From NCBI RefSeq assembly GCF_026341035.1, contig NZ_JAPEOQ010000001.1, forward strand, positions 1,860,001 through 1,924,000: DNA of 64,000 nucleotides, written 5' to 3'. Every line of letters starts with the position of its first letter. Position 1 is the first letter of the stretch. Below the pieces are notes generated by a model. The model saw only the letters and a list, made by a program, of their open reading frames with translations. It did not search any database and had not been told where the DNA came from. This DNA is from Streptomyces sp. NBC_01016. Its GTDB lineage: Bacteria > Actinomycetota > Actinomycetes > Streptomycetales > Streptomycetaceae. Both the position numbers and the translations under genes were made by a program. Below are positions 38,553 through 52,845 of this stretch, in pieces.

Positions 38553-38575
38553 TTGTCAGTGGGGCGGCCTAGACT
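38553..38575 (+). promoter_or_regulatory. RecA-NDp/PafBC-type DNA-damage promoter of pcrA
   Basis: TTGTCAGTG (38553-38561), eight bases, then TAGACT (38570-38575) matches the consensus TTGTCRGTG-N8-TAnnnT defined for LexA-independent DNA-damage promoters of actinobacteria. The pcrA ATG lies nine bases beyond, so the transcript has little or no leader. Confidence 0.75.
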
Positions 38576-38584
38576 CGGAGAGCG

Positions 38585-41080
38585 ATGAGCAGCCTCTTTG
38601 ACGACAGCTTCCTGACCGGCCTCCAGAAGAACGGTGCGGAGGAGCCCCCGCCGCCGCCTCCGGACCCCGAGTACGACGACGGGGCACCGGAGCCGATGCC
38701 GGACGACCTGTTCGGCGGGAGGCTCGGCGCGCCCGAAGACAGGGACACGCACTACCGGGACGGCGCCCCGCGCCCGGTCCTGAGCGCGGCCACCCTCCTG
38801 GAGGGGCTGAACGAGAACCAGCAGGCGGCCGTCACGCACGGCGGCACCCCGCTGCTCATCGTCGCGGGCGCCGGATCCGGCAAGACCCGCGTCCTCACGC
38901 ACCGCATCGCGTACCTGCTCGCCGAGCGCGGAGTGCACCCCGGCCAGATCCTCGCGATCACGTTCACGAACAAGGCCGCGGGCGAGATGAAGGAGCGCGT
39001 CGAGGACCTGGTGGGCCCGCGCGCCAATGCCATGTGGGTCTCCACGTTCCACAGCGCCTGCGTCCGCATCCTGCGCCGGGAGAGCAAGAAGCTGGGCTTC
39101 ACGTCCTCCTTCTCGATCTACGACGCCGCCGACAGCAAGCGGCTCATGGCGCTCGTCTGCCGCGACCTCGACCTGGACCCGAAGAAGTTCCCGCCGAAGT
39201 CCTTCAGCGCCAAGATCAGCAATCTCAAGAACGAGCTGATCGACGAGGAGGACTTCGCGGCGACCGCGGCCGACGGCTTCGAGAAGACCCTCGCCCAGGC
39301 CTACGCGATGTACCAGGCGCGCCTGCGCGAGGCGAACGCGCTGGACTTCGACGACCTGATCATGACGACGGTGAACATGCTGCGCGCGTTCCCGGACGTC
39401 GCCGAGCACTACCGCCGCCGTTTCCGCCACGTCATGGTCGACGAGTACCAGGACACGAACCACGCGCAGTACGCGCTGGTCCGCGAGCTGGTCGGCCCCA
39501 CCGAGGGCGAGGACGCGGACCCGGCCGAGCTGTGCGTCGTGGGTGACGCGGACCAGTCGATCTACGCGTTCCGCGGCGCCACGATCCGTAACATCCTCGA
39601 CTTCGAGGACGACTACCCCAACGCGAAGACGATCCTCCTGGAGCAGAACTACCGCTCCACGCAGACGATCCTCAGCGCGGCGAACGCGGTCATCGAGCGC
39701 AACGAGTCGCGCCGCCCCAAGAACCTGTGGACCAACGAGGGGCCCGGCGCCCAGATCACCGGCTACGTCGCGGACACCGAGCACGACGAGGCCCAGTTCA
39801 TCGCCGACGAGATCGACCGGCTCACCGACGCGGGCGACGCGCTGGCGGGCGACGTGGCGATCTTCTACCGGACGAACGCGCAGTCCCGTGTCTTCGAAGA
39901 GATCTTCATCCGCACCGGCCTGCCCTACAAGGTCGTCGGCGGCGTCCGCTTCTACGAGCGCAAGGAGGTCAGGGACGTCCTGGCCTATCTGCGCGTCCTG
40001 TCCAACCCCGAGGACTCGGTGCCGCTGCGCCGCATCCTCAACGTGCCCAAGCGCGGCATCGGCGACCGCGCCGAAGCGATGATCGACGCGCTCTCCCAGC
40101 GCGAGAAGATCTCCTTCCCGCAGGCGCTGCGCCGCGTCGACGAGGCGTACGGGATGGCGGCCCGCTCGACGAACGCCGTGAAGCGGTTCAACACGCTGAT
40201 GGAGGACCTCCGCACGATCGTGGAGTCGGGCGCGGGCCCGGCGACGGTCCTGGAGGCGATCCTCGAACGCACCGGGTATCTCGCCGAGTTGCAGGCCTCC
40301 ACCGACCCGCAGGACGAGACCCGCATCGAGAACCTCCAGGAACTCGCCGCCGTGGCCCTGGAGTTCGAGCAGGAGTCCGCCGCGGGCGAGGACACGGCGG
40401 AGGGCGAGTCCGAGACGGGCGGCGGGGGACTCTCCGACTTCCTGGAGCGCGTCGCGCTCGTCGCCGACTCCGACCAGATCCCCGACGAGGACGACGACGG
40501 CAGCGGCGTCATCACGCTGATGACCCTGCACACCGCCAAGGGCCTGGAGTTCCCGGTCGTCTTCCTCACCGGCCTGGAGGACGGCGTCTTCCCGCACATG
40601 CGCTCCCTCGGCCAGGCCAAGGAGCTGGAGGAGGAGCGGCGGCTCGCGTACGTGGGCATCACGCGCGCGCGACAGCGCCTCTATCTGACGCGCTCCTCCA
40701 TGCGCAGCGCCTGGGGCCAGCCCTCGTACAACCCACCCTCCCGGTTCCTGGAGGAGATCCCGGCCGCGCACCTGGACTGGAAGCGCACAGGACCGTCCAC
40801 GCCTGCGGCCTCGACCAAGAGCATCGGTGGCGGCATCGCGGCGTCCCTGTCGTCCTCGCGCTCCCGCACGGGTTCGACGCCGGCCTTCGCCACGCGCCGC
40901 GCGGGCGACAAGCCGGTGGTGGCCCTCTCCGTCGGCGACCGCGTCACGCACGACCAGTTCGGGCTCGGCACGGTGGTGGGCGTGTCGGGCACGGGCGACA
41001 AGTCGGAGGCGTCGATCGACTTCGGCGACCCGAAGCCGAAGCGTCTGCTGCTGCGGTACGCGCCGGTCGAGAAGCTGTAG
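38585..41080 (+). CDS. pcrA: ATP-dependent DNA helicase PcrA/UvrD
   Basis: An 831-residue superfamily 1A 3'-5' helicase for repair and replication-fork maintenance. The Walker A GAGSGKT includes Lys100; VDEYQDTN is the DExQ box, QNYRS is motif III/IV, and TLHTAKGLEFPVVFLTG is motif V. The ~75-residue N-terminal extension is acidic and proline-rich (EEPPPPPPDPEYDDG). The C-terminus carries the Tudor-like RNA-polymerase-binding fold (VGDRVTHDQFGLGTVVGVSG). ATG at 38585 with GGAGAG close upstream. Regulation by DNA damage is suggested by the promoter at 38553. Confidence 0.96.
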   Translation: MSSLFDDSFLTGLQKNGAEEPPPPPPDPEYDDGAPEPMPDDLFGGRLGAPEDRDTHYRDGAPRPVLSAATLLEGLNENQQAAVTHGGTPLLIVAGAGSGKTRVLTHRIAYLLAERGVHPGQILAITFTNKAAGEMKERVEDLVGPRANAMWVSTFHSACVRILRRESKKLGFTSSFSIYDAADSKRLMALVCRDLDLDPKKFPPKSFSAKISNLKNELIDEEDFAATAADGFEKTLAQAYAMYQARLREANALDFDDLIMTTVNMLRAFPDVAEHYRRRFRHVMVDEYQDTNHAQYALVRELVGPTEGEDADPAELCVVGDADQSIYAFRGATIRNILDFEDDYPNAKTILLEQNYRSTQTILSAANAVIERNESRRPKNLWTNEGPGAQITGYVADTEHDEAQFIADEIDRLTDAGDALAGDVAIFYRTNAQSRVFEEIFIRTGLPYKVVGGVRFYERKEVRDVLAYLRVLSNPEDSVPLRRILNVPKRGIGDRAEAMIDALSQREKISFPQALRRVDEAYGMAARSTNAVKRFNTLMEDLRTIVESGAGPATVLEAILERTGYLAELQASTDPQDETRIENLQELAAVALEFEQESAAGEDTAEGESETGGGGLSDFLERVALVADSDQIPDEDDDGSGVITLMTLHTAKGLEFPVVFLTGLEDGVFPHMRSLGQAKELEEERRLAYVGITRARQRLYLTRSSMRSAWGQPSYNPPSRFLEEIPAAHLDWKRTGPSTPAASTKSIGGGIAASLSSSRSRTGSTPAFATRRAGDKPVVALSVGDRVTHDQFGLGTVVGVSGTGDKSEASIDFGDPKPKRLLLRYAPVEKL

Positions 41081-44931: not shown

Positions 44932-46497
44932 TCACGGCGGAGCCAGTTCGTCCCGCATCGCCCGGCGCAGCCGCAACGTGCCGGCGAGGCGTTGGAACGC
45001 CTCCGTCCAGTACCCCCCGGCTCCGGGCGCCGACCCCTCCGGTTCCTCCACCGCCGCCGTGAGCCCGTCGAGCCGCACCACTTCCTCGGGGTCCAGGCAG
45101 CGCTCCGCGAGCCCCATCACCCCGCTGAAGCTCCACGGGTAACTCCCCGCGTCCCGCGCGATGTTCAACGCATCGACCACGGACCGCCCGAGCGGCCGCG
45201 CCCACGGCGTGCCGCACACCCCCAGCAACTGGAACGCCTCGGACAGCCCGTGCGCCGCGATGAACTCCGCGACCCAGTCCGCCCGTTCCGCCCCCGGCAG
45301 CGCCGCGAGCAGCTTCGCCCGCTCGGCGAGCGACACCGCCCCGGGCCCGGCCGCATCCGACGCGGTCGGCGCCCCGAGCAGCGCCCGCGACCAGCCGATG
45401 TCCCGCTGCCGGACCGCCGCCCTGCACCACGCGGCGTGCAGCTCCCCGCGCCAGTCGTCGGCGACCGGCAGCGCCACGATCTCCTCCGGGCCCCGGCCGC
45501 CGAACCTGTCCGGCCACCGGCCGAGCGGCGCCGCCTCCACCAACTGCCCGAGCCACCACGCCCGTTCACCCCGCCCCGCCGGCGGCTTCGCCACGACGCC
45601 GTCCCGCTCCATCCCCGCGTCGCACTCGTGCGGCGCCTCCACGACGATCGCCCCCTCCGCACGGTCGAGTGCCACGCAGGTCAGCGCCCGGTCCGCCATC
45701 CGCGCGGCGAGCGCCGAGCGGGGGAGCGCGGAGAGCAGCTCGGCCGCCGTCGCCCGCACGTTCTTGCTGCGGTCGGTCAGCGCCTGCTCGAGGAACGGCT
45801 CGTCCGCGTCGCCCAGCCCCGTACGCAGCGAGTCGAGGAACATCAGGCGGTCCTCGGCGCGCTCCGTGCCCCATGTCCCGGCCAGGAGCGCCCGGGCCGC
45901 AGCCGGGTCGTGCGCCCGAACAGAGGCGAGGAGTGCCACCCGCTCCGCGAACAGGCCCTCCTCCCACCGCAGATGAACCTGCTCGCTCTCCTCCGGTGCA
46001 GGCAGCACGGCTCCGATGCCCGGCGTGGCGCGCAGCGCGAACTTCCAGTCCGGGTTGAGCCGGGCCAGCCACCGGGCGCGCGGCCCCGCGAACGTGAGGG
46101 CCGGTGGGCGCAGGTCGGTGCGGCCACGCGCCGCGTCGAGCAGTGCGGGCAGCAGCTCGTGCGGGGGCGCGTACCCGTGCGCGTTGGCCGTGGCCAGCCA
46201 CTGCGGGAGCAGTTCGAGGAGGTCGGGGGCGGTGCCGCGGCGCGACCCCGTGCCACTGGAGCGGTCGGTGAGCAGGAGCGCGAGCCGCTGCCGCGCTGCG
46301 GTCGGCAGCGGGGGACGCGGGTCGTCCTCGGCGCGGTCCGGCGGCGCGGTCGCCGCGGCGGGACGCAGACCGGCCCGGCGGCGCACGGTGTGCATGGCGG
46401 CCTCGTCGAGGAGGGCGAGCGGCGGGCGGTCCGAGCGCCGTTCGGTTCCGAGCAGGGCGGCGCTGACGAGGTCGTCCCAGGTGGCGGTGGTGGTCAT
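44932..46497 (-). CDS. DUF5691-domain protein of the MoxR-VWA system
   Basis: A 521-residue, mostly helical, HEAT-like protein rich in Ala/Leu/Arg (for example RSKNVRATAAELLSALPRSA, resembling a HEAT repeat). Recognised as the DUF5691 family that travels with SWIM, MoxR, DUF5682 and VWA genes. No catalytic motif is visible; a scaffold or substrate-adaptor role is a guess. The ATG at 46497 (MTTTATWDDL) is chosen. It follows the SWIM gene by 73 bases on the same strand and is probably co-transcribed from the damage-type promoter at 47973-47995. Confidence 0.8.
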   Translation of the reverse strand: MTTTATWDDLVSAALLGTERRSDRPPLALLDEAAMHTVRRRAGLRPAAATAPPDRAEDDPRPPLPTAARQRLALLLTDRSSGTGSRRGTAPDLLELLPQWLATANAHGYAPPHELLPALLDAARGRTDLRPPALTFAGPRARWLARLNPDWKFALRATPGIGAVLPAPEESEQVHLRWEEGLFAERVALLASVRAHDPAAARALLAGTWGTERAEDRLMFLDSLRTGLGDADEPFLEQALTDRSKNVRATAAELLSALPRSALAARMADRALTCVALDRAEGAIVVEAPHECDAGMERDGVVAKPPAGRGERAWWLGQLVEAAPLGRWPDRFGGRGPEEIVALPVADDWRGELHAAWCRAAVRQRDIGWSRALLGAPTASDAAGPGAVSLAERAKLLAALPGAERADWVAEFIAAHGLSEAFQLLGVCGTPWARPLGRSVVDALNIARDAGSYPWSFSGVMGLAERCLDPEEVVRLDGLTAAVEEPEGSAPGAGGYWTEAFQRLAGTLRLRRAMRDELAPP

Positions 46498-46570
46498 CGT
46501 GGGTCCTCTCCGTGGTGCGGTCCTCTTCACCGACAACGGTGTTTCGGCGTGGTGGTGGTCCTTGGATTGG

Positions 46571-47965
46571 TCAGCACAGCGATATGACCTCCCCGGCTTC
46601 CTCCGCCCATGTGGCCAGCGGGCGGAAACCGGCCGGTCCGCATTCGCCGAACACCGTCACCGGAGCGCCTCCCGAGACGGCGACCAGGCGCCACAGGCCG
46701 GGGGACGCCGCCGCGTGCGCGGTGAGGGGGAGCCCCGACTTGCCTTCGCTGTCCGCCAGTTGCCAGTGCCCGGCCGGGTCCCGCGTCGGTATCACCTCCG
46801 CGAGCGTCACCGGCCAGGACTCCAGCCAGGGGTCGGCCGCGAGCGCCGTTCCGTAGGCGGCGAGGCCGGTGGTGACGTCAACTCCCTTGGGACGTATGCC
46901 GTCCGACTCGGCCGGGGCGAACTGCTCGCCCAGCTCTGCCCGGAGGGCCCCTGCTCCCGGATACGCCGACACCGCGGCGTCGAGCGTGCGCCCGGTCGGC
47001 AGGGCGAGCGCCGGTGCGCGGCCGGCCGCCCCGTAGGAGAGGAGCAGTACGGTGCGCGCGCTCTGCGTGCCGTGCAGCCATGCCCGGCGCGTGGTGAGGT
47101 GGCCGTCCGCCGTGTCGTACTGGGCGAGGATGAGCCAGCGGTCGCGCACCGGTGGCTCTCTGTCCGAAGCCGGCAGGCCCACGCGCGATCGGACCGTCGC
47201 CGCCAGGTCGTCGGGCAGGGCGTCGCGGCGCAACCAGCCCTGGTCGAGGAGGTGGAGCAGCGCGCACGCCTCGAGCAGCCGCACCGGCCAACCGGGCCCG
47301 GACGCCGGGATCGCCCCCAACTCTCTTACGCGCGCGGCAAGTCCGGGCGCCTGCGCGTCGACCATGCGCGCGGCCGTCTCCTCCCACAGCCCGTAACCCG
47401 ACTGCTCAGCCTGTGCGAGGCCGCCGCGCAGCAGGTCGGCGAGGCGCTGCTCCAGCTCTGTCGCGCCCGCCGTGATCCGCTGGGCGCGGCGCTCGGCTCT
47501 GCGCCGGGCCGCATCCGGATCCGCCGCGGCGCCGCCAGAGCCGGCCGCCGACGCATCGGTCTGCTGGGACTCGGCCCGCCTCTGCCGCCCCGCCAGCCAT
47601 GGCTCGGCCCACTCCGGCGGCGACTGGTCGGCCGGCACCTGCGCATCGCCGCCCGCCCAGAGCAGCAAGAGCCCGAGCGCGTGCTTGCACGGGAACTTGC
47701 GGCTCGGGCAACTGCACTTGTACCCCGGCCCGTTCGACCCCGCGGTGCCACCGTCGATGTCCACGATCGTCTGGTACGGCTTGCTGCCGCTCCCCTTGCA
47801 CAGTCCCCATACCGCCCCCTCGTCCGAATTCCCCACGCCCGCGGAACTCCCGGTCCCCGACCACGGGCCCGGCCCCCCGAGCTTGCTTCCCGCCTTGCGT
47901 GACGCGGCGTCAGGCGCCAGTGCGAGCACCTGATCCGTCGTCCAGCGCACCCCCAGCTGATTCAT
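46571..47965 (-). CDS. SWIM zinc-finger protein of the MoxR-VWA system
   Basis: A 464-residue protein with a SWIM zinc finger near its N-terminus: Cys84-x-Cys86-x6-Cys93-x-His95 (KCSCPSRKFPCKHA). SWIM domains bind DNA or proteins. The remaining ~350 residues are helical with no recognised catalytic motif. The ATG at 47965 (MNQLGVRWTT) lies seven bases after a -10 element, so translation is probably leaderless, although GAGGA is also present just before the ATG. First gene of the leftward arm of the divergent cluster. Confidence 0.88.
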   Translation of the reverse strand: MNQLGVRWTTDQVLALAPDAASRKAGSKLGGPGPWSGTGSSAGVGNSDEGAVWGLCKGSGSKPYQTIVDIDGGTAGSNGPGYKCSCPSRKFPCKHALGLLLLWAGGDAQVPADQSPPEWAEPWLAGRQRRAESQQTDASAAGSGGAAADPDAARRRAERRAQRITAGATELEQRLADLLRGGLAQAEQSGYGLWEETAARMVDAQAPGLAARVRELGAIPASGPGWPVRLLEACALLHLLDQGWLRRDALPDDLAATVRSRVGLPASDREPPVRDRWLILAQYDTADGHLTTRRAWLHGTQSARTVLLLSYGAAGRAPALALPTGRTLDAAVSAYPGAGALRAELGEQFAPAESDGIRPKGVDVTTGLAAYGTALAADPWLESWPVTLAEVIPTRDPAGHWQLADSEGKSGLPLTAHAAASPGLWRLVAVSGGAPVTVFGECGPAGFRPLATWAEEAGEVISLC

Positions 47966-47972
47966 GTCCTCG

Positions 47973-47995
47973 ACGTTAGATCCCGCCACTGACAA
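47973..47995 (-). promoter_or_regulatory. RecA-NDp/PafBC-type DNA-damage promoter of the SWIM-DUF5691 operon
   Basis: On the minus strand TTGTCAGTG (47995-47987), eight bases, TAACGT (47978-47973): an exact match to TTGTCRGTG-N8-TAnnnT. The SWIM ATG starts seven bases downstream. Confidence 0.75.
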
Positions 47996-48056
47996 TCCGT
48001 CCGCCAACGGCTCCGACCTGCGGTGATTGCGTGGCCGAGGTCGATTGTCAGTGGCG
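47984..48056. promoter_or_regulatory. 14-bp perfect inverted repeat spanning the divergent promoter
   Basis: CGCCACTGACAATC (47984-47997) is exactly complementary to GATTGTCAGTGGCG (48043-48056). Each arm therefore carries TTGTCAGTG, one facing the SWIM gene and one facing moxR. On the moxR side the base block after eight nucleotides is CACCGT, a poor -10. Confidence 0.8.
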
Positions 48057-48143
48057 TGGTGCACCGTGGAATCCATCACGCGACGAGAGCGGTCGAGGGC
48101 TCGTCGTGCGGATTCGAGTTGGGCGAGTTGGAGGGGGACAGCC

Positions 48144-49325
48144 ATGACCATTTCCGTCGAGAGCCAGACCGAGAACCAGATCGAGAGCAAGGCCGGGAGC
48201 CAGCCCGGGACCGGGGCCGGGAGTCAGGGCGGGGGCCAGGTCGCGGACGAGGTGCTGCGGGCGCACGCCGAGGACGCGTTCGCGGAGGAACTCGCGGCGC
48301 TCGCCGCGCAGGACGACCGGCCGCGGCCGGCCCGCTGGCGCATGTCGCCGTGGGCCGTCGCGACCTATCTGCTCGGTGGCACGCTGCCCGACGGCACGGT
48401 GATCTCGCCGAAATACGTGGGTCCGCGCCGCATCGTCGAGGTCGCCGTGACGACGCTGGCGACCGACCGGGCGCTGCTCCTGCTCGGCGTGCCCGGCACC
48501 GCCAAGACCTGGGTGTCCGAGCATCTCGCCGCCGCCGTGAGCGGGGATTCGACGCTGCTGGTGCAGGGCACGGCGGGGACGCCGGAGGAGGCCATCCGCT
48601 ACGGCTGGAACTACGCGCAGCTGCTGGCCAACGGGCCGAGCAGGGACGCCCTCGTGCCGAGCCCGGTCATGCGGGCGATGGCGGAGGGGATGACCGCGCG
48701 CGTCGAGGAGCTGACGCGTATCCCGGCCGATGTGCAGGACACACTGATCACGATCCTGTCCGAGAAGACCTTGCCGATACCGGAGTTGGGGCAGGAGGTG
48801 CAGGCCGTGCGCGGCTTCAACCTCATCGCCACGGCCAACGACCGGGACCGCGGGGTCAACGATCTGTCGAGCGCGCTGCGGCGCCGGTTCAACACGGTCG
48901 TGCTGCCGCTGCCCGCGAGCGTGGAGGACGAGGTCGACATCGTCTCGCGGCGGGTCGACCAGGTCGGCCGCGCACTGGAACTGCCCAGCGCGCCCGACGG
49001 GATGGACGAGATCCGCCGCGTCGTCACCGTCTTCCGCGAGCTGCGCGACGGTGTGACGGCCGACGGGCGGACGAAGGTGAAGTCCCCCAGCGGCACGCTG
49101 TCGACCGCCGAGGCGATCTCCGTCGTCACCAACGGCCTCGCGCTGTCCGCCCACTTCGGGGACGGCGTGCTGCGTCCCTCCGACGTGGCCGCCGGGATCC
49201 TCGGGGCCGTCGTGCGTGATCCGGCGGCGGACCGGGTCGTCTGGCAGGAGTACCTGGAGGCCGTGGTGCGCGAGCGCGACGGCTGGAAGGACTTCTACCG
49301 GGCCTGCCGAGAGGTGAGCGCATGA
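48144..49325 (+). CDS. MoxR-family AAA+ ATPase
   Basis: A 393-residue AAA+ ATPase. After a Gly/Ser/Gln-rich N-terminus, the Walker A is Gly115-Val-Pro-Gly-Thr-Ala-Lys-Thr122, the Walker B/second region lies around DVQDTLITILSEKT, sensor 1 is ATANDRDRG and the arginine finger region is SSALRRRFN. MoxR ATPases act as chaperones with VWA-domain partners, as encoded two genes downstream. The ATG at 48144 has GGAGGGGGA upstream. Its stop overlaps the next start by four bases. Confidence 0.92.
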   Translation: MTISVESQTENQIESKAGSQPGTGAGSQGGGQVADEVLRAHAEDAFAEELAALAAQDDRPRPARWRMSPWAVATYLLGGTLPDGTVISPKYVGPRRIVEVAVTTLATDRALLLLGVPGTAKTWVSEHLAAAVSGDSTLLVQGTAGTPEEAIRYGWNYAQLLANGPSRDALVPSPVMRAMAEGMTARVEELTRIPADVQDTLITILSEKTLPIPELGQEVQAVRGFNLIATANDRDRGVNDLSSALRRRFNTVVLPLPASVEDEVDIVSRRVDQVGRALELPSAPDGMDEIRRVVTVFRELRDGVTADGRTKVKSPSGTLSTAEAISVVTNGLALSAHFGDGVLRPSDVAAGILGAVVRDPAADRVVWQEYLEAVVRERDGWKDFYRACREVSA

Positions 49326-51640
49326 CGACACCGACCACGGGCCCCGCGCTGCTCGGCGTGCGGCACCACGGGCCCGGCTCCGCGCGCGCAGTGCGCTCCG
49401 CGCTCGACGCAGCGCAACCGCGGATCGTCCTGATCGAAGGGCCACCGGAGGCCGACGGTCTCGTGCCGCTCGCCGCCGAGGCCGGCATGCGGCCGCCGGT
49501 CGCGCTGCTCGCGCACGTCGGGGACGAGCCGGGGCGGTCCGCGTTCTGGCCGTTCGCCGAGTTCTCGCCCGAATGGGTCGCGATCCGCTGGGCGTTGGAG
49601 CGCGACGTGCCGGTGCGCTTCATCGACCTCCCGGCCGCGCACAGCCTGGCGATGCGGTCGGAGGACGACAAGAGGGAGGAGGCGGCGGAGGACGAGGGGG
49701 ACTCCGTGCGCGTGGACCCCCTGCGGGTCCTCGCCGAGACCGCCGGGTACGACGACGCGGAGCGCTGGTGGGAGGACGTCGTCGAGCACCGGGACGGCGA
49801 CGCCTTCGCCGCGCTCGGCGAGGCGATGGGCGCGCTGCGGGAGACGTGCGGGGACGGCGGACACGAGCGCGATCTGGTGCGCGAGGCGTACATGCGACTC
49901 CAAGTGCGCGCGGCCCAGCGTGAGTTCGCGGACGACGTGGCCGTCGTGTGCGGGGCGTGGCACGTGCCCGCGCTGCGGCAGCGGACGACCGTCGCGGCCG
50001 ACCGCGCCCTGCTCAAGGGGCTGCCGAAGGCGAAGGTCGACATGACGTGGGTGCCGTGGACGCACCGGCGCCTGGCCCGCGTCAGCGGATACGGGGCGGG
50101 GATCGACTCGCCCGGCTGGTACGGGCACCTGTTCAGCGCGCCCGACCGGCCCGTGGAGCGCTGGCTGACGAAGGTCGCCGGGCTGCTGCGCGATGAGGAC
50201 CGCATCGTGTCCTCCGCCCATGTCATCGAGGCCGTACGACTCGCGGAGACCCTCGCCGTGATGCGCGGGCGGCCGCTCGCGGGGCTCACGGAGACCACCG
50301 ACGCGGTGCGGGCCGTGCTGTGTGAGGGCTCAGACGTACCGCTGGCGCTCATCCACGACAAGCTGGTGGTCGGCGACGTGCTGGGGGAGGTGCCCGAGGC
50401 GGCGCCCGCGGTGCCGTTGCAGCGCGATCTCACGCGGCAGCAGCGTTCCCTGCGGCTCAAACCGGCCGCCGCGGAGAAGGAGTTGGACCTCGATCTACGG
50501 GGTGACACCGACGCCGCGCGCAGCCGCCTGCTGCACCGGCTGCGGCTCCTGGGCGTGGCCTGGGGAGAGCCGGCGAGATCGGCTCGCGGCTCCACCGGCA
50601 CCTTTCGCGAGTCGTGGCGGCTGCGCTGGGAGCCGGAGCTGTCCGTGCGGGTCGCGGAGGCGGGGGTGTGGGGGACGACCTTGCTCGCCGCCGCGACCGT
50701 CAAGGCGGAGACGGACGCGGTCGCCGCGCGGGCGCTCTCCGACGTCACGGCGCTCGCCGAGGTCTGCCTGCTCGCGGGGCTCGCGGACGCGCTGCCGACG
50801 GTGATGCGGATCCTCGCCGACCGCGCCGCCCTCGACACGGACGTCGGTCACCTCGCCGGCGCCCTGCCCGCCCTGGTCCGCGCCCTGCGCTACGGCGACG
50901 TGCGCGGCACCGACACCGAAGCCCTCGCCGACGTGGCGGCGGGCCTCGCCGAGCGGGTCTTCGTCGGCCTGCCCCCGGCGTGCGCGGGGCTCGACACGGA
51001 GGCGGCCGAGGAGATGCGCGGTCATGTCGACGCGGTGCACTCGGCCGTCGCGCTCCTGGAGGACAGCGGCGTGCGCGAGCGCTGGCGGACCGTGCTGCGC
51101 GTGCTCGCGGAGCGGGACGGCGTGGCCGGGGTGATCCGGGGGCGGTGCGCGCGGGTTCTGCTCGACGAGGGCGTGCTCGACGAGGAGGACGCGGCCCGGC
51201 TGATGAGCCTCGCTCTCTCGCCCGGCACCGCGCCGGCCGACGCGGCGGCGTGGATCGAGGGCTTCGTCGGCGGCGGTTCGGGCGGCGGGCTGCTCCTGGT
51301 GCACGACGAGCGGCTCCTGGCCCTGGTCGACGCGTGGTTGACGCGGGTGTCGGACGACGCGTTCACCGACGTACTGCCGTTGCTGCGCCGCACGTTCTCG
51401 GCGTACGAGCCGGGTGTGCGGCGGACCTTGGGCGAGCTGGTCCGGCGCGGGCCCTCCGAGGGCGGGCAGTCCCCGGTCACCGGTGGACCGCGCGGCTTCG
51501 GAGAGGACCTGGACACGGAGCGGGCGGACGCGGTGCTGCCGGTGCTGCGCCTCCTGCTCGGTGCGGGTGCGGGTACCGGTGATGGCGGCAGTGGCGGAAA
51601 CGACGAGGGCGACAACGGCCCTGAGGGGGCGGTGGCATGA
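49322..51640 (+). CDS. DUF5682-family protein of the MoxR-VWA system
   Basis: A 772-residue protein. The N-terminal half resembles the EreA/ChaN-like fold: LLGVRHHGPGSARAV at the start, an acidic IVLIEGPPEADGL strand and a later CGAWHVPALR motif; these His/Glu residues could form a catalytic or metal site. The rest is helical. The family co-occurs with MoxR and VWA genes; its activity is not known to me. ATGA overlaps on both sides (with moxR and with the VWA gene) show tight translational coupling. Confidence 0.85.
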   Translation: MTTPTTGPALLGVRHHGPGSARAVRSALDAAQPRIVLIEGPPEADGLVPLAAEAGMRPPVALLAHVGDEPGRSAFWPFAEFSPEWVAIRWALERDVPVRFIDLPAAHSLAMRSEDDKREEAAEDEGDSVRVDPLRVLAETAGYDDAERWWEDVVEHRDGDAFAALGEAMGALRETCGDGGHERDLVREAYMRLQVRAAQREFADDVAVVCGAWHVPALRQRTTVAADRALLKGLPKAKVDMTWVPWTHRRLARVSGYGAGIDSPGWYGHLFSAPDRPVERWLTKVAGLLRDEDRIVSSAHVIEAVRLAETLAVMRGRPLAGLTETTDAVRAVLCEGSDVPLALIHDKLVVGDVLGEVPEAAPAVPLQRDLTRQQRSLRLKPAAAEKELDLDLRGDTDAARSRLLHRLRLLGVAWGEPARSARGSTGTFRESWRLRWEPELSVRVAEAGVWGTTLLAAATVKAETDAVAARALSDVTALAEVCLLAGLADALPTVMRILADRAALDTDVGHLAGALPALVRALRYGDVRGTDTEALADVAAGLAERVFVGLPPACAGLDTEAAEEMRGHVDAVHSAVALLEDSGVRERWRTVLRVLAERDGVAGVIRGRCARVLLDEGVLDEEDAARLMSLALSPGTAPADAAAWIEGFVGGGSGGGLLLVHDERLLALVDAWLTRVSDDAFTDVLPLLRRTFSAYEPGVRRTLGELVRRGPSEGGQSPVTGGPRGFGEDLDTERADAVLPVLRLLLGAGAGTGDGGSGGNDEGDNGPEGAVA

Positions 51641-52845
51641 CCGGCACTGAGACCAACACCAACACCAACACGGACGAGCGCTTGCGCCGGTGGCGCCTCG
51701 TGCTCGGCGGGGCGGACGCGGACGGCACAGGTTGCGGGCTCGAGGGGCAGGACGCCGCGATGGACGGCGCCCTCGCCGCTCTGTACGGCTCGGGCGGCGG
51801 CAAGCAACAGGGCGGGGGCAGCCGGAGCGCGGGGCTCGGGGCGTCCGCTCCTGCCGTGGCCCGCTGGCTCGGCGACATCCGGACCTACTTCCCGTCCTCC
51901 GTCGTCCAGGTCATGCAGCGGGACGCCATCGACCGGCTCGGCCTGTCCACGATGCTGCTCGAACCGGAGATGCTGGAGGCCGTCGACGCGGACGTGCATC
52001 TCGTCGGCACGCTGCTCTCGCTGAACAAGGCGATGCCGGAGACGACGAAGGAGACGGCCCGCGCCGTCGTGCGCAAGGTCGTCGAGGACCTCGAGAAGAA
52101 GCTCGCGACGCGCACCCGCGCCACCCTCACCGGCGCCCTCGACCGCAGCGCCCGCGTCCAGCGGCCGCGCCACCACGACATCGACTGGAACCGCACGATC
52201 GCGGCCAACCTCAAGCACTACCTGCCCGAGTACCGCACGATCGTGCCCGAGCGGCTGATCGGGTACGGGCGTGCGGCGCAGTCCGTGAAGAAGGAGGTCG
52301 TCCTCTGCATCGACCAGTCGGGCTCGATGGCGGCATCCGTCGTCTACGCCTCGGTCTTCGGGGCGGTGCTCGCCTCCATGCGCTCGATAACGACCCGGCT
52401 CGTCGTCTTCGACACGGCCGTCGTGGACCTGACGGACCAGCTCGACGACCCGGTCGACGTCCTGTTCGGCACCCAGCTCGGCGGCGGCACGGACATCAAC
52501 CGGGCGCTCGCGTACTGCCAGTCGCAGATCACCCGCCCCGCCGAGACCGTCGTCGTCCTCATCTCCGACCTCTACGAAGGAGGCATCCGCAACGAGATGT
52601 TGAAGCGGGTCGCCGCGATGAAGGCGTCCGGCGTGCAGTTCGTGACGCTGCTCGCGCTCTCCGACGAGGGTGCGCCCGCCTACGACCGGGAACACGCGGC
52701 GGCGCTCGCGGGATTGGGCGCGCCGGCCTTCGCCTGCACCCCGGACCTGTTCCCCGACGTCATGGCAGCGGCCATCGAGAAGCGGCCCTTGCCGATACCG
52801 GACGCGGCATCGGAAAAGGGTGCACCCGCCGCGAACCGGATATGA
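51637..52845 (+). CDS. VWA-domain protein, MoxR partner
   Basis: A 402-residue protein with a C-terminal von Willebrand A domain. The MIDAS motif is Asp226-x-Ser228-x-Ser230 (CIDQSGSMAAS), with further ligands in QLGGGTDINRAL and VLISDLYEGG. The N-terminal ~200 residues are helical (CoxE-like). No signal peptide or membrane helix is present, so it acts in the cytosol with the MoxR ATPase. Last gene of the rightward arm; no clear terminator follows. Confidence 0.9.
   Translation: MTGTETNTNTNTDERLRRWRLVLGGADADGTGCGLEGQDAAMDGALAALYGSGGGKQQGGGSRSAGLGASAPAVARWLGDIRTYFPSSVVQVMQRDAIDRLGLSTMLLEPEMLEAVDADVHLVGTLLSLNKAMPETTKETARAVVRKVVEDLEKKLATRTRATLTGALDRSARVQRPRHHDIDWNRTIAANLKHYLPEYRTIVPERLIGYGRAAQSVKKEVVLCIDQSGSMAASVVYASVFGAVLASMRSITTRLVVFDTAVVDLTDQLDDPVDVLFGTQLGGGTDINRALAYCQSQITRPAETVVVLISDLYEGGIRNEMLKRVAAMKASGVQFVTLLALSDEGAPAYDREHAAALAGLGAPAFACTPDLFPDVMAAAIEKRPLPIPDAASEKGAPAANRI

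Follow-up and report, generated by a model that had tools for sequence, protein, structure and literature searches.

What does the perfect inverted repeat in the gap between two divergent gene sets of Streptomyces sp. NBC_01016 signify, and does it place both sets under the control of a single regulator? In the window (the whole stretch of 64,000 nt analyzed here), the minus strand to the left of this gap codes for a 464-aa SWIM zinc-finger protein (46571..47965; PF04434, E 2.9e-6) and, downstream in the same operon, a DUF5691 protein (44932..46536; PF18944, E 6.2e-171). To its right, the plus strand codes for a MoxR-type AAA+ ATPase (48144..49325; PF07728, E 3.1e-37), a DUF5682 protein whose gene overlaps the moxR stop codon (49322..51640; PF18934, E 2.7e-300), and a CoxE-like VWA protein whose gene in turn overlaps the DUF5682 stop codon (51637..52845; PF05762, E 8.3e-61). 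The arms of the repeat, GATTGTCAGTGGCG on both sides, occupy 47984..47997 (minus strand) and 48043..48056 (plus strand), and are identical over exactly 14 nt with 45 nt between them. The left arm belongs to the SWIM promoter (47973..47995, minus strand), which comprises TTGTCAGTG at 47995–47987, an 8-nt spacer, and TAACGT at 47978–47973, with the SWIM ATG (47965) 7 nt further on. The right arm belongs to a moxR promoter candidate (48045..48067, plus strand), with TTGTCAGTG at 48045–48053, again an 8-nt spacer, and CACCGT at 48062–48067; the moxR ATG at 48144 lies 76 nt past this hexamer, behind a GGAGG-type ribosome site. These coordinates bear out an earlier note, made from the letters alone, both in the exact SWIM-side motif with its ATG 7 nt downstream and in the 14-nt arm mirrored towards moxR. 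Given the exact arms and the placement of CACCGT at the same spacing, what looks like an inverted repeat is a single promoter element present twice, each copy facing outward.

We take the letters of the RecA-NDp motif, as in the earlier note, to be TTGTCAGTG, an 8-nt spacer, and TAnnnT; the SWIM side matches the pattern TTGTC[A/G]GTG-N8-TAnnnT and the moxR side, with its CACCGT, does not. Our reading, to which we assign a probability of about 0.83, is that two RecA-NDp-type promoter motifs face outward from the gap, through which PafBC is predicted to induce both halves of the cluster after DNA damage. The SWIM mRNA is predicted to be leaderless, starting from the ATG 7 nt past the hexamer.

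Across the 10.02-Mb genome, the strict SWIM-type pattern TTGTCAGTG-N8-TAnnnT has 33 matches against none for the backward pattern, and the bare 9-mer TTGTCAGTG has 71 against 12 for the backward word. NAnnnT follows at exactly N8 in 57 of these 71 sites, where one or two would be expected at the G+C content of the window (71.5%), and its first base is T in 33, C in 18, G in 5, and A in 1; thus, most copies of TTGTCAGTG stand in promoter register, and a C at −12 is a regular form. Genes were assigned to the TA-type sites by a simple rule as the best downstream ORF, and for the 31 such sites outside the window 28 ORFs were scanned, three sites without a credible ORF being left out. The scanned genes include recA, uvrA, uvrB, a uvrA-like gene, dnaE, dnaX, and ung, along with those for an ogt-type methyltransferase, a YoaA/DinG-like helicase, a RarA-like AAA protein, and a RecD2-like helicase, mazG, rpsF, and two TerD genes; the rest code for transporters, a sigma factor, and other enzymes or are unnamed ORFs. 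The window itself holds two TA-type sites, that of SWIM and a second (38553..38575, plus strand; TTGTCAGTG-N8-TAGACT) located 9 nt before a UvrD/PcrA helicase gene (38585-41080). The 18 CA-type sites consist of the moxR site and 17 others, ten of which had ORFs scanned; their targets include genes for a Y-family polymerase, an Lhr-type helicase, the gyrase/topoisomerase IV subunit A, a pentapeptide-repeat protein, and a WYL regulator. These sites may constitute a weaker subclass of the regulon.

Two observations on the CA-type sites stand apart: by the ORF rule, 11 of the 18 lie 6–7 nt before a start codon; and one lies 6 nt before the start of a WYL/HTH regulator gene other than pafBC (L264:502-1494, minus strand), which is possibly a second-tier regulator.

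Many of the scanned targets are repair genes of the kind ascribed to PafBC in PMC8223512, and pafB and pafC, coding for WYL and HTH_PafC proteins, adjoin pafA in this genome. A PafC-type gene was present in all 23 genomes tested, with or without the motif, so its co-occurrence with the motif does not discriminate. A search for the LexA/SOS box (GAACN4GTTC and longer forms) recovered none in 47501-48600, where a lone GTTCGA stands at 47732. Among the matches listed, the SWIM-moxR pair is the one outward-facing pair at 34–64 bp in its own genome, and such pairs occur in 138 of 297 family genomes, with none for the backward control among the rows listed.

The earlier note had called for orthologous loci to be scanned for the motif, and the scan found it kept. 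Searching named genomes with the SWIM protein yielded 536 relatives, of which we retained the best 80, all from Streptomyces, the closest being 84% identical (Streptomyces sp. KL109B). All 80 of these best loci preserve the SWIM motif and the mirrored arm, with TAnnnT on the SWIM side and TTGTCAGTG-N8-CAnnGT on the moxR side in every one. The SWIM motif ends 7 nt before the ATG in 73 loci and 6 nt before it in the other 7; the moxR-side motif lies 42–128 nt from the moxR ATG, the start being taken from the ribosome site. We also studied 37 further family loci, ten from the same genus, picked for their lack of the strict pair, and 27 from other genera. TGTC-N12-CAnnnT was recovered on the moxR side in 35 of them, with no match in two, and TGTC-N12-TAnnnT on the SWIM side in all 30 that had a SWIM match within reach and in divergent orientation. 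Taken together, the −12 base is T on the SWIM side in 110/110 loci and C on the moxR side in 115/117 (the two exceptions having no match), a split that was not built into the search since the pattern allowed T or C at this position. The asymmetry suggested by the earlier note is therefore supported at the level of the sequence. Its description of the moxR-side −10 as poor stands when CACCGT is measured against TAnnnT, but not in this genome, where CAnnnT is a regular form at 18 of the 57 sites; with CAnnnT also at 115/117 family loci, this −10, judged by its letters, is not decayed.

We then compared loci from outside the Streptomyces family. Among 394 genomes of the class, 105 have DUF5682, and the stronger full-length matches with enough contig around them were used. 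Forty loci, drawn from five other families (f17, f18, f42, f4, and f26), have SWIM upstream of moxR and in the same direction. The 11 of these fetched whole have the order SWIM-DUF5691-moxR-DUF5682-VWA, except that the f42 locus lacks a DUF5691 match. The SWIM starts were tested for TGTC-N12-[T/C]AnnnT ending 4–12 nt before an in-frame start, a looser condition than the strict pattern. This promoter was found at 35 of the 40 starts (29/29 in f17, 5/5 in f18, 1/1 in f42, 0/4 in f4, and 0/1 in f26), as against 0/40 for the backward pattern and 0.045 expected in total from shuffles. All five f18 SWIM promoters use CAnnnT. The leaderless motif was not found at the SWIM start in the four f4 loci or the one f26 locus. 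At other distances, TTGTCGGTG-N8-TA is present in three of those f4 loci.

As the Streptomyces moxR site has a leader, a wider test was used on the moxR side, namely TGTC-N12-[T/C]AnnnT up to 450 nt before the aligned moxR start. It recovered 35 of the 37 further Streptomyces-family loci, none of the 40 co-directional loci (38 of them in genomes that also entered the SWIM test), and none of ten distant paralogues with moxR 44–48% identical; the backward pattern gave zero in every set. Two co-directional f17 loci have TTGTCGGTG-N8-GAGAAT 139 nt before moxR, possibly an independent GA-type moxR-side site, so sites on this side may also occur outside the Streptomyces family. Within that family, SWIM-DUF5691 is for the most part inverted, with a separate site before moxR; the co-directional order is shared by at least two genomes, both from one genus, and these have TGTCGGAC-N8-CAGnnT near the moxR start, so that the moxR site may predate the inversion. 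The simplest history would begin with a single operon that had one PafBC-type promoter before SWIM; SWIM-DUF5691 would then have been inverted within the Streptomyces family, a second PafBC-type site keeping the moxR half in the regulon. Very likely, the cluster is an old member of the LexA-independent damage regulon. The claim of the earlier note that one RecA-NDp/PafBC-type control could act on both operons is supported, as a prediction, by the genome-wide targets, the fixation of the motifs among orthologues, the SWIM promoter in undivided operons, and the presence of both pafB and pafC.

The spacing of the arms raises another reading, in which the SWIM side is the sole promoter and the moxR-facing arm is a helper PafBC site, with moxR transcribed from a different promoter. 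In 81 Streptomyces rows, the distance separating the TTGTCAGTG words takes no values other than 36–38, 48–49, or 60–61 bp, classes that lie about 12 bp apart and that change at least 14 times on a SWIM tree; the best 80 loci keep to these values as if the arms were phase-bound, and their moxR side has CAnnGT rather than TAnnnT at its 42–128 nt from the moxR ATG. However, the other family loci break this rule, with gaps of 26, 29, 41, 42, 55, 62, and 171, and in four genomes the arms are 569–668 bp apart with each motif still beside its own gene, which argues that both are promoters. Further, the use of CAnnnT at 18 of the 57 genome sites and in all five f18 SWIM promoters speaks against treating that form as a non-promoter one, and we therefore regard the helper-site explanation as unlikely. 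The spacer also contains a third conserved element, GCAGGTCGG, read towards SWIM (48013..48021, minus strand), a relaxed form of which is present in 80/80 spacers. This element, GCAGGTC[A/G]G, mostly precedes an arm by 13–14, 25, or 37 nt, measured from start to start, and points towards moxR only in 71 of the 80 loci, both ways in 3, and towards SWIM only in 6, which is also its orientation in the window. Its core lies near 8 of 48 other sites, and it may be the site of a second regulator.

Under the preferred reading of two outward-facing PafBC-type promoters, one motif would serve SWIM-DUF5691 and the other moxR-DUF5682-VWA, and damage would induce both together via PafBC. In mycobacteria, ssDNA-bound PafBC reads a −26 motif and sits between domain 4 of sigma-A and DNA, as described in PMC11804915. 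By extension, ssDNA-bound PafBC would here read a −26 element, which we equate with TTGTCAGTG by register, and recruit the housekeeping RNA polymerase without a −35 box. The leaderless SWIM mRNA would be strong and the moxR mRNA, with its leader and ribosome site, weaker because its −12 base is C. Descriptions of RecA-NDp promoters from 2002 (S. rimosus recA) and 2004 (M. tuberculosis) are cited in PMC5087735, and SCO6735, a gene with a promoter of this type, is UV-inducible according to PMC5087735 and PMC9411070, which provides one precedent for a damage response of such Streptomyces promoters. A 2022 study of the SOS response of S. venezuelae noted that the PafBC motif of M. smegmatis, from a first search, seemed not to be conserved there and that a LexA-independent damage response was still to be demonstrated in Streptomyces (PMC9380542). 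In the NBC_01016 genome and in 80 Streptomyces loci, the motif is, to judge from its register and conservation, plainly in use, and the 57 of 71 sites in promoter register provide a testable list of candidate LexA-independent targets for Streptomyces.

An alternative trigger is DNA supercoiling rather than damage. We take SCO4803-SCO4805 of S. coelicolor as the presumed orthologues of moxR, DUF5682, and VWA, with SCO4804 (815 aa) as the DUF5682 gene; these identities derive from size, order, and neighbors, which tempers any argument built on them. In PMC8120823, depletion of TopA raises sco4804 eightfold together with its adjacent genes, and a transposon mutant of SCO4804 has lower topA promoter activity, making it a positive factor for topA. 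Yet a response to supercoiling would leave the damage-type promoter on each side unexplained, and too much negative supercoiling might by itself lead to more ssDNA and higher PafBC activity; hence, we consider it distinctly improbable as a replacement for damage control, which could in turn explain the rise of these genes on TopA depletion. It is still less probable that another activator, such as some other WYL protein, reads the motif, or that the motif is an ordinary housekeeping promoter. The genome does have three HTH_PafC matches, one of them the aforementioned WYL gene with its own CA-type site; against this, the RecA-NDp motif is what PafBC acts through in M. smegmatis (PMC6789036, PMC8223512), and the targets found here are similar repair genes. 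Chance resemblance, for which we found nothing in favor, is refuted by the conservation, the backward controls, and the genome-wide register, and its probability is negligible.

As to what is being regulated, the gene order and the occurrence of SWIM and DUF5691 as one open frame (994–1093 aa) in four loci, two each from f18 and f4, argue for joint action of the proteins. None of the five cluster proteins matches a PADLOC model of anti-phage defense at E 0.001. In the predicted model of the SWIM protein, the C-terminal half resembles OB-fold/ssDNA-binding proteins with only middling Z. A speculative and rather doubtful proposal, drawing on this model, is that a SWIM protein whose C-terminus is a tandem of OB-like parts binds damaged DNA or ssDNA and recruits a MoxR-VWA remodeler along with DUF5682 and DUF5691 to repair or topoisomerase complexes. 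It would be an old, class-wide, PafBC-switched system in which a phase-locked second site and a tuned C at −12 might have kept a fixed ratio after the split.

Among known systems, the MoxR-vWA ternary conflict systems (PMC7159879) share the pairing of MoxR with vWA, but the bpMoxR model scores below its cut-off here (22.5 vs 27), and the text of that paper contains no mention of DUF5682, DUF5691, SWIM, YehL, YehM, or DNA damage. PMC8120823 reads SCO4803-SCO4805 as supercoiling regulators, the term DNA damage being absent from its main text, and gives gaps of 103 and 171 bp around sco4804, a misfit with the overlapping genes of the window. The earlier note had termed the system undescribed; this does not hold for the presumed S. 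coelicolor moxR half, which figures in the TopA study; our literature searches listed no paper connecting the cluster with PafBC. The mycobacterial RecA-NDp/PafBC regulon, Streptomyces recA, and SCO6735 are alike with the present sites in TTGTCAGTG, the 8-nt spacer, TAnnnT, the nearness to the start codon, and repair targets; they differ in that here two copies point outward from one gap, the moxR copy is CAnnGT in 80/80 loci, and the cluster targets are not known repair genes. Finally, E. coli yehL-yehM-yehP-yehQ likewise has, by annotation, adjoining genes for a MoxR ATPase, DUF5682 (26% identical), VWA, and SWIM, and all four neighbors that typify it are present in our cluster. Its order is moxR-DUF5682-VWA-SWIM in one direction, unlike that of the window, and tblastn with the window SWIM and DUF5691 proteins gave no match in the yeh locus. 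The motifs described here thus offer a regulatory clue for a five-gene MoxR-VWA-SWIM cluster that is found in several families and related to yehLMPQ.
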